A stretch of 64,000 bases of DNA from Betaproteobacteria bacterium (GCA_028291945.1 JAQGNH010000392.1:32678-96677), one strand, 5' to 3'. Shown: positions 35,670-41,450, numbered from the stretch's first letter. Notes: generated from the letters alone by a model not told the origin. A program made the numbers and translations.

Positions 35670-35709
35670 AGCACATCACACGACCGTGTGAGAGCGTGCC
35701 ATACCGGAG

Positions 35710-36060
35710 GATGGGAGGTTACGGACGAAAACCTTGGGTTTCCCTCTGTCCGTTCATAGGCCCGCCTCGCGGAGCGAGCTTCCGAGGGCAAACAAGCACT
35801 GGGCGCAATCAGCGCACCGCATTGGCTCAGTGCCTCAAAGCGAGCGCTGCGAGCCGAAGGAAGAGAGGTTACGGAGAGAAACCTAAGTGTCTCTGTTCGT
35901 TCAGGCGGGGCGCCTAGCGGAGCAAGGTTGCGCAGCGAAACTATCGCCGGGCGCAATCCAGCGCATCGCATTGGCTCAGTGCCCCGAAGCGAGCGACGAG
36001 CCCGACGATGGGAGGTTACGGAGGGAAACCTTGGTTTCCCTCTGTTCGTAAATTCCATTA
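35710..36060. repeat. Three imperfect ~148-bp tandem repeats (third truncated), each with a hairpin
   Basis: GA(T/A)G(G/A)GAGGTTACGGA at 35710, 35860, 36007; shared GCATTGGCTCAGTGCCYC; copy 3 hairpin GAGGGAAACCTTGGTTTCCCTC. Confidence 0.8.
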
Positions 36061-36077
36061 TCGCGCTTCACGCGATA

Positions 36078-36130
36078 ATGGGGTGGCTGATGGGACTCGA
36101 ACCCACGACAACCGGAATCACAACCCGGAC
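36078..36130 (-). pseudogene. Displaced 3' portion of tRNA-His (att site)
   Basis: ATGGGGTGGCTGATGGGACTCGAACCCACGACAACCGGAATCACAACCCGGAC matches 41374-41426 with 3 differences; D-arm and 5' acceptor half absent. Confidence 0.9.
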
Positions 36131-36531
36131 GCCACAGATTCTGAATTTTGTTAAATCAACAGGTTAGGCAGCGCCGGCTCTTCCTGTGTCGATTTAATAG
36201 CCCCTGATGGCCTATCCTTCCAGCACACTTTTGACACAGCATTTCATACCGACGTCGCTTCCCATACTGTCCGCGGGGGAAGCGTTACTGCGACATGTAG
36301 GTGAGCCAGACCCGGACTAGCCTCATCGACGAGCTCAATTGAACGGATTTCGAACCGTTAATTGCCGCTCGAAAATCTGTCCGTGCTGCAGTCTTCGGAA
36401 TAAAGCTCTTTGCATCCCGCCAGAAGCGCCGAAGCGACGATCATCGCGTCTTAAATACTAAGCCCGTAACGAGCGGCAATTGCGGAACATCGCGACAGTA
36501 GGCAAGCTGGGTAAGCCATGTCAGCACTGAG

Positions 36532-37371
36532 GTGCTACAGTTCCGCCATAAACCACTCACAGCTGAGTCTAGTGTGAATCACGGCCTCGAGTACAACCGC
36601 CAGCTCTTGTTACTTGGTGCCAAGCGGAACGCAGTTCTTGAACTGTCGGAAGTGCAGCGTTATGGAACGGATAGCTACGGCGATCCTGACTACGTAACGA
36701 TTTACGGTTTGCGACCCGCCGACTGGTTCGCGAAGGGAGTCCGGCTCCTCGGGCGCACAGCGGTCGAATGCACCCGAGATGAGCTCGCCAACGCAGTCGG
36801 AAAAGAAATCGCGGCAATTGCTGCAAGTGGCGCAGAGGCGGCGCATGTCGTTTTGGACCCGTTTGCTGGGTCCGGCAACACGCTGTACTGGATCTTGCGC
36901 CACCTGCCTGGTGCGCGCGCTACCGGTTTCGAGCTCGATCCTAAAGTTTTTGAGCTCACCCGAGCCAATCTGTCGATACTCGGGCTTCCAGTTACGATCC
37001 TGAACGCCGACTACGCGAGCGAACTGTCCAATGTTGCACCTGCTACCGATGAGCTTCTGGTTACGTTCATAGCCCCACCTTGGGGCGAAGCGCTCAGCGC
37101 AAAGTCAGGACTCGATCTACGACGCACCACTCCGGCCGTAACCGAAATCGTTGACCTACTCACGAAACAGTATCGGCACAATCGGCTCGTATGCGCCGTT
37201 CAGGTTCACGAGCGACTTGATCATGCCGGTGTACGCGAAATTACGCAGCGCTTCGACTGGTCAGCGTTATCCATCTTTGATCTGAATCCGCCCGGAGAAC
37301 GGCACGGACTTCTTCTTGGCACAATCGGGTGGGTGCCACGACTCGGAGCTGCAGCAGCGAATCATGCATAG
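36532..37371 (+). CDS. SAM-dependent methyltransferase (PPWG motif)
   Basis: VVLDPFAGSGNTLYWILRHLPGARATGFELDP (motif I) and LVTFIAPPWGEAL (motif IV-like); GTG start uncertain. Confidence 0.75.
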   Translation: MLQFRHKPLTAESSVNHGLEYNRQLLLLGAKRNAVLELSEVQRYGTDSYGDPDYVTIYGLRPADWFAKGVRLLGRTAVECTRDELANAVGKEIAAIAASGAEAAHVVLDPFAGSGNTLYWILRHLPGARATGFELDPKVFELTRANLSILGLPVTILNADYASELSNVAPATDELLVTFIAPPWGEALSAKSGLDLRRTTPAVTEIVDLLTKQYRHNRLVCAVQVHERLDHAGVREITQRFDWSALSIFDLNPPGERHGLLLGTIGWVPRLGAAAANHA

Positions 37372-37459
37372 CTACGCTGCTGTGGCGTTCAATCGCCAGG
37401 ACGTCGCGGCACAAGTATGTGTGGTGCCGCTTATGGCCCGATAGCTGCCTGCTGCTTGG

Positions 37460-38850
37460 CGCTGCCCCAGTTGGTGTAACAGGGGACCTACGGATACAGG
37501 CGGAGCGCGTAATCGCATGATTACGCATCCCTGCTCTGCCATAAAACGCATTAGGACGAAAACAACGAGCGCCGCCTCAGCTCATGCCTACTTGTTTTCG
37601 TCATAACGCGTCTATGAGGCGGTCTTTCATCAACGAATTTCTATCCGCCAAGCGGTTTTGATCAGACAGCGTTTAATCATACTGCTGCCCTTGCAAGCGG
37701 GCGCATGCTGATTACCTCCACGGTTAAGTTGTTGCTCAATTCTCCGTGCTAATCCCCGAGCTAATCGCGATATCCCTTTTTTTTGCCACCATTTCTCATT
37801 GCGCGACGATACGAGACCAATCAAGATCACCAGCAACATCGCCTGAACAGTGCATCGATTGACGCGCAAAAAGTGACGGCGTAAAAATGAGTCTCACGTT
37901 GTACAGGTAGTTGGCATCCTGGCCGTTCGTTGCGAGCGGCGAAGCCAGCGCAGTGGTTATCGCAGCCGATCATCGCGATCGAGTAACACACGCCAGCTCG
38001 CCGCGTGGGAAGTAGCCAAGCCCAAGAGAAAGATTCAAAAGAGCGCGAGGTTAACCCGTATTGCCTCGTGCGCGCGCCTGCAAGGGCGTTCGGGAGAGAG
38101 TGACGCGCGTGGCTTGACAGTGCGCGTCGCAAGCCCTCGAGCTTGCAGAGAGACGGCCGTCCCCAAGACGGTCGCATAGGATTGCACAGTGGCCGTCGCT
38201 TCCTGGGCGGCCTGTCAAAGAGATCCCGAACGGGATCACCGAGCGTTCACGGCAAGTGAGCGCCCGGTCACGAGATCGAGCGAGTTTGTTGTCTCGCCTC
38301 GATCGTGGACGCGTGACGTCCAGTAGCAACGTGTCGGTCCGGTGCTCGATGCCAGACCGACACGTTTTCCGACATTGATTCCGAGAGTCGCCGCCTGTTT
38401 CGGTGCGTGACGTGCGAAGGCCGCACGCCGCCCGTGTGCCGCGAGCCTTGAGCTCGCGTGCACGCGACGTGGGGTAACGGCCGTAGCCGCTCACGCACAC
38501 AGCTATCGCCACCCGCACGCGCGTCGTTACTAGCGGGCCACCGCTAGTGACGTACGCGCTAACACGACCGGCGCGGGGTGCAAGTCCCGCGTGTCTGCGA
38601 ACTCGGAACCACGTGACGAACCTCCTGAAGGCGAGTCATGCCAGCTTTGCGATGGGTGCAATGCCCTCGCCGAATGATTCGCGTAACGGACCGATGAGAC
38701 GCGCCTTAACGGCGCTCCTTGAGTCCTGGGTTAATGACTCTCGCGACGGGCGATTCTGCAGGATCGCCCTCGCGACGCCTACAAGGCGGCGTGCGGCGCC
38801 GGCGAGCAGCAAAAACTTCCGCACGAAACGGGAGTGGTGTCCCGTGCTCA
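37460..38850 (+). ncRNA. Candidate large structured non-coding RNA (or structured ssDNA locus)
   Basis: More than 20 local hairpins including 11-18 bp stems; near-uniform G-U orientation on +; no convincing ORF; boundaries approximate, densest part 38041-38850. Confidence 0.5.
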
Positions 38851-38990
38851 ATCTTAGTCCTCGTGGCCGCTACGGCGTCACAGGCGAGCAGAAACACTTA
38901 CCTGACACGAACACACCAAGGCAGCACAGGCAGCACGGCAGAAACGCTTTACGGGACGAATGGAACGCTTTTCAAGAAAGGACCTGAATC

Positions 38991-39980
38991 ATGCGAGACA
39001 AACGATCACCGCTCCCGCCGTCGGTTCCCACTCTGGCGGCGGCGCTTCAAATCGCGGGCATGGATTGCCTCCCGCGTGTTCGCTCTCACTCACATGACAA
39101 GGACGCGCCCATGCGTGATCTGAACTACGCCTTGAAGCAGCTCTCCATGCGAAACCGTGATGGCAGCTTCGCGACCCAGGCCGACCGCCAGCACATCCTC
39201 AATCTCGTTGCCAATCAGCTCCACGAGATGGGGTTCCGGCACATGGACGCCCACAGCCTGAAGCCCAAGCACGTAGAGAAGCTCGTTGAGCGCTGGCTTG
39301 GCGAGGACCTGTCGGCGGGGACGCTCAAGAACCGGATGACGGCGCTGCGCTGGTGGGCCGAGAAGATCGGCAAGGAGAACGTTGTCGCGCGCAGCAACGA
39401 CGCCTACGGCATTCCGGATCGAGTCTTCGTGACCAATGTTTCGAAGGCCACCGAGCTTGACGCCGAGAAGGTCGGGCAAATTCGGGATGCCTACATCCAA
39501 ATGTCACTCCGACTGCAAGCCGCATTTGGCCTGCGCCGCGAAGCCTCGATCAAGATCATTCCGGCGCTGGCGGATCAAGGCACCTGGCTCGTACTCCAAG
39601 AGTCCTGGAACAAGGGCGGGCGAGAGATCAGACTTCCCATCCTCACGCCGGAGCAGCGCGATCTCCTCGACCAGGCCAAAGCACTTGCTCAAGGCAAGAG
39701 CCTCGTTGCGCCCGGCCATACCACCTACCGCGACTATCTCGCGCACTTTCGTTACGAATGCAAGCGCGTCGGCATTCACGCCTTCCACGGCCATCGACAT
39801 TTCTACGCGCAGGCGCGCTACAAAGCATTGACCGGTCACGAATGCCCGGCGCGGGGTGGCCCTACTTCCAAACAACTCACGCCCGAGCAGAAGGCCGCCG
39901 ATCGCGAGGCGCGGCAGACGATCAGTCACGAGATGGGCCATAACCGCGAACAGATCACTGCCGTGTATTTGGGACGCTGA
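38991..39980 (+). CDS. Tyrosine recombinase-like integrase domain protein (Phage_integr_N/Integrase_1 type)
   Basis: LRREASIKI, HAFHGHRHFYAQARY, HEMGHNREQITAVYLG give R...HxxR...H...Y; conserved-looking start MRDLNYALKQLSMRNRDGSFATQADR may be the real start at 39111. Confidence 0.75.
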   Translation: MRDKRSPLPPSVPTLAAALQIAGMDCLPRVRSHSHDKDAPMRDLNYALKQLSMRNRDGSFATQADRQHILNLVANQLHEMGFRHMDAHSLKPKHVEKLVERWLGEDLSAGTLKNRMTALRWWAEKIGKENVVARSNDAYGIPDRVFVTNVSKATELDAEKVGQIRDAYIQMSLRLQAAFGLRREASIKIIPALADQGTWLVLQESWNKGGREIRLPILTPEQRDLLDQAKALAQGKSLVAPGHTTYRDYLAHFRYECKRVGIHAFHGHRHFYAQARYKALTGHECPARGGPTSKQLTPEQKAADREARQTISHEMGHNREQITAVYLGR

Positions 39981-39992
39981 CGCACAACGCAC

Positions 39993-40337
39993 GTGCGAGA
40001 GCTGGCAGATAGCGAGATGAGTCACGCAGTCCCACTCACTCAAGCGGCCGCCGTCTTGGGGGTCGCCTATAAGACGGTGTGGAAAGCCGCCGCTACGGGG
40101 AAGATCAAGGCGTTCCGTGCGTGGCCAGGTGGGCCATGGCGCATATGGCAGCACGAGCTCGACCGCTTATTGCATAATGAGCACGGGCCGGCGCTGCCTC
40201 CAGATATGGAGGTTGCATGCCCCATAAGCGTGAAGGGAGCCGATATTGGTGGGTGCGTATCGGCGGAGTACGACAATCTGCTGAAACAGAGGACTTCGAA
40301 GCAGCGACGCGGATCGAGCGTGACGGCAACGAGATAA
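39993..40337 (+). CDS. HTH excisionase-like DNA-binding protein
   Basis: LTQAAAVLGVAYKTVWKAAATGKIKAFRAWPGGPWRIWQHELDRLL winged-HTH; overlaps the integrase start. Confidence 0.65.
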   Translation: MRELADSEMSHAVPLTQAAAVLGVAYKTVWKAAATGKIKAFRAWPGGPWRIWQHELDRLLHNEHGPALPPDMEVACPISVKGADIGGCVSAEYDNLLKQRTSKQRRGSSVTATR

Positions 40338-41350
40338 TTCAGCTGTCACGTCAGAAGGCCAAGATAGAGGCGATGCGCCTTGAATTGGTCGGCGCCAAAC
40401 CGGCGCGGTCGTGGAAAGAGCTTTGTGTTCGCTGGTCGAAGGAGAAAGCAGCAAAGGCGTCTTGGCTGGATGATCTGAGGATGATCGAGTGGTGGGGTCA
40501 GCATCTGGATCACATTACTGACATCCGCGTGATCACTCGCGAGCGGGTTGACGATGTCATGCGGACGCATCGCAGCGGCATAACCGTAGCATCAGCAGTA
40601 CCGGCCAATTCAACGGCTAACCGCTACGTGGCGTTGCTCTCCGCCATGCTGAATGCCGCGTGCAAGCGGTGGGACTGGATCGAGCGTGCCCCGCTCTTGA
40701 TGCGCTACCCAGAACCGGAAGGCCGCGAGTCGTGGCTGACGGTTACCGAGTGGCGCTTACTCGAGCAGCAGTGCCCCGAGCACCTGCGGCGGCCAGCGAC
40801 ATTTGCACTGGCTACCGGGTTACGCGATGCCAAGGTGTTTGGTTTGGAATGGCCACAGATAAACATGTCGGAGCGGTATTTGATGCACAAGGGAACCGGG
40901 AACAAGCTGGGCAACGTCATTCCGTTGAACGATACGGCCATGGCGGTGCTGCGCGAGATCCAGGCATCCCCGGTGCGTCATATGACGCGGGTGTTTACGT
41001 GGATGAAGCCAAAGAAGGTGGATGATGTTCTAACGTACACGGTCGAGCCGTTGAATGATTACGGTAAGGCGTGGTGGAAAGCGCTCGCGCGTGCTGGTCT
41101 GGGGCATTACGATGCAGATGGACGCTGGCGGGGGGAATTTACGTGGCATGGACTACGCCACACCTTCGCAACGTGGCTACGCAGCGGTGGTGCTCCCGAT
41201 TGGGCAATCGACGCTTTGGGAGGCTGGTCAAGGGCTGCAACACGCGAGCGTTATTCGCATGTGTACGTCGAGTCTCTGCGGCCGTTCGCGCAGATGATCG
41301 ACACAGTTCTGACACAGCAACCGGATATTAGAGCAGCACAACACCGGTAA
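40217..41350 (+). CDS. int: Phage-type tyrosine integrase
   Basis: ATGLRDAKVFGLEWPQI, FTWHGLRHTFATWLRSGG, LGGWSRAATRERYSHVY; ends next to tRNA-His. Confidence 0.92.
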   Translation: MPHKREGSRYWWVRIGGVRQSAETEDFEAATRIERDGNEIIQLSRQKAKIEAMRLELVGAKPARSWKELCVRWSKEKAAKASWLDDLRMIEWWGQHLDHITDIRVITRERVDDVMRTHRSGITVASAVPANSTANRYVALLSAMLNAACKRWDWIERAPLLMRYPEPEGRESWLTVTEWRLLEQQCPEHLRRPATFALATGLRDAKVFGLEWPQINMSERYLMHKGTGNKLGNVIPLNDTAMAVLREIQASPVRHMTRVFTWMKPKKVDDVLTYTVEPLNDYGKAWWKALARAGLGHYDADGRWRGEFTWHGLRHTFATWLRSGGAPDWAIDALGGWSRAATRERYSHVYVESLRPFAQMIDTVLTQQPDIRAAQHR

Positions 41351-41374
41351 GTCGTTGAACTGCAGGTGAGAAGA

Positions 41375-41450
41375 TGGGGTGGCTGACGGGACTCGAACCC
41401 GCGACAACCGGAATCACAATCCGGGACTCTACCAGCTGAGCTACAGCCAC
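41375..41450 (-). tRNA. tRNA-His (GTG)
   Basis: GTGGCTGTAGCTCAGCTGGTAGAGTCCCGGATTGTGATTCCGGTTGTCGCGGGTTCGAGTCCCGTCAGCCACCCCA; G at -1. Confidence 0.97.

Follow-up and report, generated by a model that had tools for sequence, protein, structure and literature searches.

What is the function of a compact island, inserted at a tRNA gene, that carries two different tyrosine recombinases and a long structured non-coding sequence? In a Betaproteobacteria bacterium (GCA_028291945.1, JAQGNH010000392.1:32678-96677; this whole stretch of 64,000 nucleotides (nt) is the window referred to below), such an island spans ~5.3 kb (36078-41424) at tRNA-His and consists of four genes and a gene-free region. One recombinase is the integrase adjoining the tRNA gene; the other is named Int1 here. 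The original prediction saw a functional set made of a methyltransferase, a structured RNA and the second recombinase. This set is not supported, as the methyltransferase is without convincing homologs in the family, and what recurs, with varying integrases and cargo, is the structured unit followed by Int1. With moderate confidence, the island can be read as an integrative mobilizable element (IME), with Int1 as a candidate recombinase-type relaxase and the unit as a candidate RNA of conjugative transfer, probably together with the origin of transfer (oriT).

The unit is a non-coding stretch of ~700 nt on the plus strand (~38214-38924). Its extent was set by how far copies in unrelated contexts stay homologous in pairwise comparison, from about -480 to +230 relative to the core; the 5′ domain in the window diverges from other copies, and the 5′ limit is less certain than the 3′ one. 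The minimum free energy of 38214-38924 lies at z = -8.3 relative to shuffled sequences. The conserved 3′ core (38694-38902, plus strand) scores 155 bits with the covariance model R1. In the core, 25 aligned sequences support ten helices, of which one forms a pseudoknot, with 90.5% of cells paired and double-sided changes in 34 of 52 pairs; covariation reaches 0.311 versus 0.133 after shuffling, a value attained in none of 500 shuffles, and slid partners give at most 0.071. The element conserved over the longest range, judged by motif counts upstream of Int1, is AACACTTACC (38893-38902, plus strand). In 69 of 98 loci, the 300 nt preceding Int1 contain the exact motif AACACTNACC (shuffles, 0.05%); plasmids from Pasteurellaceae, Pleionea, Acinetobacter and Salmonella are among these loci. 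The core hairpin CGGGAGTGGTGTCCCG, just before 38850, has an invariant GUGGUG loop, which could, as an idea, pair with the CCA end of a tRNA.

No Rfam family accounts for this structure. An Rfam covariance search at permissive thresholds returned tRNA matches only, and a known Rfam RNA was rejected as the identity of the unit. GOLLD and ROOL are mobile-element RNAs of large size and elaborate structure, in some cases encoded near tRNA genes; the unit differs from them in having no Rfam match, in its hosts and in its partner genes. Literature searches on PF12835 and on large RNAs associated with integrases, with thin coverage of subscription journals, yielded no description of the module.

Int1 (39111-39980, plus strand) combines PF12834 and PF12835. 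Its conserved start is at 39111 and not at the alternative 38991. Across 23 homologs, residues R142, H226, R229, H230, H277 and Y286 do not vary, which bears out the predicted second recombinase of R-H-R-H-Y type. A sequence search of solved structures gave no convincing relative. A second, divergent Integrase_1 protein, scoring 52 bits, is encoded elsewhere in the host genome (L180, G000:C294:3000-16000; here and below, L numbers denote loci and G numbers genomes).

How constant is the association between unit and recombinase? A tblastn-guided scan yielded 80 loci with Int1 relatives, in which blastn revealed conserved sequence immediately upstream of Int1. With R1, 57 loci score above 50 bits, 24 of these 57 being training sequences of the model, and 11 more reach E<0.01, giving 68 of 80. 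The pair occurs in conjugative-type elements and tRNA islands of Beta- and Gammaproteobacteria. ICE-type (integrative conjugative element) neighbours are seen in 34 of the 80 Int1 loci, and 19 combine another recognised tyrosine integrase with a nearby tRNA or transfer-messenger RNA gene. The closest parallel to the window is a tRNA-His island of equal size with a 50-nt repeat on a Burkholderiales contig (L027, 2800-8283), which contains the structured unit, Int1, a DUF4224 open reading frame (ORF) and a different integrase, and whose cargo differs (a DUF5615, PIN-like gene and an RTX-like ORF). At L144 (7700-9990), the unit and Int1 lie beside tRNA-Lys; no further integrase is recognised in the interval, and there Int1 may be the sole recombinase. 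In the family of the window's host, the unit is present in 25 of 74 genomes, in up to four copies each; since an even draw of the phylum gave it in only 2 of 397 genomes, its distribution is patchy. R1 detects no further copy in the host genome itself (G000).

The unit also exists apart from Int1. At 12 of its 32 places in the family, Int1 is absent from the flanks fetched, and these copies score in the same range as those with Int1. At least six such RNA-only copies adjoin another recombinase: large serine recombinases at L139, L141, L142 and L145, three of which are situated at tRNA-Asn, tRNA-Tyr and tRNA-Arg, or P4-type integrases at L133 and L135. For one copy with a serine recombinase, the tRNA-Arg flank occurs alone in the other genomes searched within the genus of G052. 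The genes near these copies include TIR (L139) and TumE (L145). On a tree built from the unit, five changes are required for the RNA-only state, of which at least three are forced by well-supported branches. Because the unit occurs both with and without Int1, and the RNA-only state has arisen at least three times, it may be considered a cis-acting or trans-usable transfer sequence. RNA-guided recombination by Int1, in the manner of bridge RNAs, was rejected as the leading idea, the unit being found also beside serine and P4-type recombinases without Int1.

The same separability could mean that the unit acts in trans as an RNA in its own right, whether selfish, defensive or regulatory. Many integrative elements would then carry it as cargo, and Int1 would often be its neighbour without being its partner. 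Its place beside both tyrosine and serine recombinases, a structure like that of other large mobile-element RNAs and the TumE and TIR genes in the adjacent cargo would all suit such an RNA. Against this, even the plasmids of Pasteurellaceae and Acinetobacter retain AACACTNACC upstream of Int1, and 68 of 80 Int1 loci have an upstream R1 match at E<0.01; an RNA indifferent to Int1 is considered quite unlikely.

Is the folded molecule RNA at all? In the alignment, G-T cells outnumber A-C cells by 68 to 27, and the loops of the 5′ domain vary among GCAA, GAAA, GUAA and GAGA. Together, the ratio and the loop variation favour a plus-strand RNA, and folded single-stranded DNA is still compatible with them. 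The unit might be a DNA structure formed during transfer which, as a Frpo-like promoter on single-stranded DNA or as a single-strand origin, activates the neighbouring recombinase at entry. It does lie just upstream of recombinases from different families and frequently shares their orientation; no sigma-70-like promoter is apparent near its 5′ end, and the 68:27 ratio fits a single-stranded plus-strand structure. However, loop variation of the GNRA type and a pseudoknot are typical of RNA, and the P4-type integrases beside two RNA-only copies face the opposite way, so that this proposal appears very improbable.

A role in conjugative transfer is suggested by comparison with SGI1. There, the order is oriT, sgm-sRNA, mpsA and mpsB. 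The sgm-sRNA comes from a transcript of 650-700 nt whose functional part is 3′, and mobilization depends on this RNA; for MpsA, the proposal is that of an atypical, tyrosine-recombinase-like relaxase (PMC6414798, PMC9299015). Like SGI1, the island occupies a fixed site, has its own integrase and lacks a type IV secretion system (T4SS) of its own. It shares a tyrosine-recombinase-like protein with a C-terminal tyrosine and intact catalytic residues, and directly upstream of it a structured RNA of ~650-700 nt, here a candidate, whose most critical part is 3′, this likeness being one of position and length. Because position, length and type of partner match SGI1, Int1 is proposed as a relaxase and the unit as a transfer-related RNA and probable oriT. 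The two systems differ in their site (tRNA-His and not trmE), in the absence here of SGI1-type regulators or Tra subunits and in the architecture of the recombinase, since Int1 has its own PF12834 core-binding domain, whereas MpsA relies on the separate MpsB (PMC9299015).

Two plasmid proteins offer further parallels. MobK of pIGRK and TcpM of pCW3, unrelated in sequence to each other, are recombinase-type relaxases with RK(H/Y)RH residues and a tyrosine, and with an oriT upstream of their genes, as in the proposed Int1 module (PMC8152469, PMC6137059); unlike that module, they are reported to lack a core-binding domain, and no structured RNA has been reported with them. The RNA-only elements resemble IMEs that carry only an oriT or an oriT mimic (PMC5704250) in combining a recombinase with a transfer-type sequence and no relaxase; they differ in that the shared sequence is a covarying structure of ~700 nt and not a short oriT, and use of Int1 in trans is for them only proposed.

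It is tempting to propose the following course of events. Int1, as a tyrosine-recombinase-like relaxase, would nick at or near the structured unit, which would carry an RNA needed for the initiation of transfer and probably also oriT. The coupling protein and the mating pore would come from a helper conjugative element, and the island circle would enter the recipient as a single strand before integrating at tRNA-His, with the methyltransferase travelling as a passenger. Elements that keep the unit without Int1 would borrow Int1 in trans, in the way of oriT-only IMEs.

The gene neighbourhoods of Int1 are in part those expected of a relaxase. On small plasmids without a known relaxase, whose Int1 homologs are 44-54% identical, the Int1-type gene precedes one for a T4SS coupling protein, either immediately or with a single small ORF in between; this is seen on pSIO1, pAhaem5227a, a Pleionea plasmid and pCFSAN093705. 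A total of 46 PLSDB plasmids, mostly from Acinetobacter, encode the pSIO1-type coupling protein, and all 46 are typed as non-mobilizable; among 60 rows sampled from the Int1 search, this coupling protein accompanies Int1 in 22 of 22 Acinetobacter records. On the chromosome, loci of the L058-L066 type (e.g. L059) have Int1 ahead of genes for PilL2, TIGR03759, PFL_4695 and TraD. Among nine genomes with loci of this or another ICE type, a MOBH relaxase scores over the cut-off in one, and a further relaxase search of seven of the nine, none of which has a MOBH match, gave MOBP and MOBF in one genome each.

Several observations weigh against Int1 and the unit as a transfer system. The core-binding domain of Int1 (PF12834, 3e-20) is reported to be absent from MpsA, MobK and TcpM (PMC8152469), and because of it membership in the MpsA/MobK/TcpM group is not claimed. 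Nucleotide searches of plasmid, phage and viral-contig collections found no copy of the unit, and R1 gave marginal matches only in the regions upstream of Int1 on plasmids (best E 0.13). TraC ATPase occurs in three of the genomes with L058-type or other ICE-type loci, with no linkage to Int1 seen, and the L058-type loci may be incomplete ICEs. A search of the host assembly for coupling proteins, covering the PF02534 family only, gave none. Finally, a distant subfamily of Int1 (30-36% identity) is located on large Burkholderiales plasmids, several of which encode MOBH or MOBP; as these homologs share plasmids with known relaxases, Int1 is not always the sole relaxase, and a role in resolution fits them as well. 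On the large PRTRC-type plasmids of L168-L174, some with MOBH or MOBP, the distant Int1 follows a gene-free gap of ~1.1-1.5 kb.

These last points lead to another rival, in which Int1 is an ordinary site-specific recombinase that resolves multimers or integrates a nested element, with the unit serving as its recombination site or as its regulatory leader. The full catalytic set with a core-binding domain, the constant placement of the unit upstream of Int1 and the presence of Int1 on MOBH/MOBP plasmids, where resolution would fit, are all consistent with it. Yet the 12 of 32 family units without Int1 score like the rest, ~700 nt with a pseudoknot far exceeds the size of a core site, and Int1 on plasmids is consistently adjacent to a coupling-protein gene. 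An ordinary recombinase with its site is considered unlikely, and the IME with a relaxase-like Int1 is the reading preferred here.

That the island itself is a real tRNA-His-directed integrated element follows from its repeats, the intact tRNA, the adjacent integrase and empty sites in relatives. Direct repeats at 36078-36128 and 41374-41424 bound it. Predicted as 53 bp long, the pair is real and imperfect, with 48 of 51 nt identical and no perfect 53-mer; a 46-nt pattern tolerant of the differences matches twice in the window, at the two repeats, for a chance expectation of 0. The intact tRNA-His (gtg) was confirmed by ARAGORN at 41375-41450 on the minus strand. Three congeners (G001, G002 and G003) have the intact tRNA-His without the island, the empty sites that the original prediction had asked for, and the covariance model does not find the structured unit in them. 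The left repeat (plus strand) carries the ATGGG/CCCACG variant, the form of most tRNA-His genes in the family, and adjoins a terminator-like inverted repeat (36055-36081, CCATTATCGCG/CGCGATAATGG, no strand assigned), equivalents of which directly adjoin tRNA-His in the empty sites L084 and L085. For these two reasons, the left copy is taken as the displaced native 3′ end of tRNA-His, beside which its native inverted repeat has stayed, and the right copy (plus strand), on the evidence of the repeat match and of tRNA-His variants, as the element-borne sequence that now forms the 3′ part of the gene. Just outside the island, at 35700-36045, are imperfect direct repeats of ~148 bp with a GGAGGTTACGGAGGGAAACCTTGG core; this core (~98% over 43 nt) is found at several places in G001-G003, as a REP-like dispersed repeat.

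The remaining genes are of more ordinary kinds. The site-specific tyrosine integrase for the tRNA-His site (40217-41350, plus strand; PF00589, 5e-16; phrog_1, 2e-42) ends 24 bp from tRNA-His, adjacent as predicted, with a gap one nucleotide shorter than the 25 bp given. As also predicted, its start is overlapped by a helix-turn-helix ORF (39993-40337, plus strand), an HTH_17 or AlpA-like protein and candidate excisionase (PF12728, 1.9e-7; PHROG excisionases). The class I S-adenosylmethionine methyltransferase (36532-37371, plus strand) has weak TGS1/RsmD-like matches (PF03602, 9e-5, under the cut-off; TGS1 in the PDB, 1e-3). In 73 other genomes of the family it has no convincing homolog and one marginal match, and 72,556 plasmids contain one homolog; on these sequence comparisons it is private passenger cargo, and was rejected as a member of a conserved set. 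As the methyltransferase is private and L027 has other cargo and another integrase, the expected co-conservation of the four genes reduces to the unit and Int1. Between the methyltransferase and the unit lies a spacer (37372-38213, no strand) that includes an inverted repeat of 20 nt (37546-37611) and no family-matched ORF. In accord with the original prediction, Pfam, NCBIfam, PADLOC and PHROGs gave no known relaxase, capsid or T4SS domain for the four ORFs; with Int1 itself a candidate relaxase, the statement that a relaxase is missing may mislead. Capsid, packaging and phage-interference genes, which characterize phage satellites, were likewise not found in them. The predicted minimal satellite-type island is thus a minimal integrated island, as the polarity of the repeats, the empty sites and the L027 island indicate, with an IME favoured over a phage-type satellite.

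Collectively, this points to a widespread and uncatalogued module of unit and Int1 that probably allows conjugative hitch-hiking much as in SGI1. More tentatively, with a chance put somewhat below even, ~700-nt RNAs paired with Integrase_1-type recombinases may constitute a non-canonical way of initiating conjugation in IMEs, ICE-type elements and small ‘non-mobilizable’ plasmids, with many minimal RNA-only elements using Int1 in trans. If so, a relaxase and a transfer-related RNA would be supplied for plasmids typed as non-mobilizable, including the 46 small, mostly Acinetobacter ones, and a class of large structured RNAs absent from Rfam would be added. RNA-dependent conjugative mobilization would extend from SGI1, the sole case found, to a large family, and the role of RNA in the initiation of transfer would become testable in many small natural systems.

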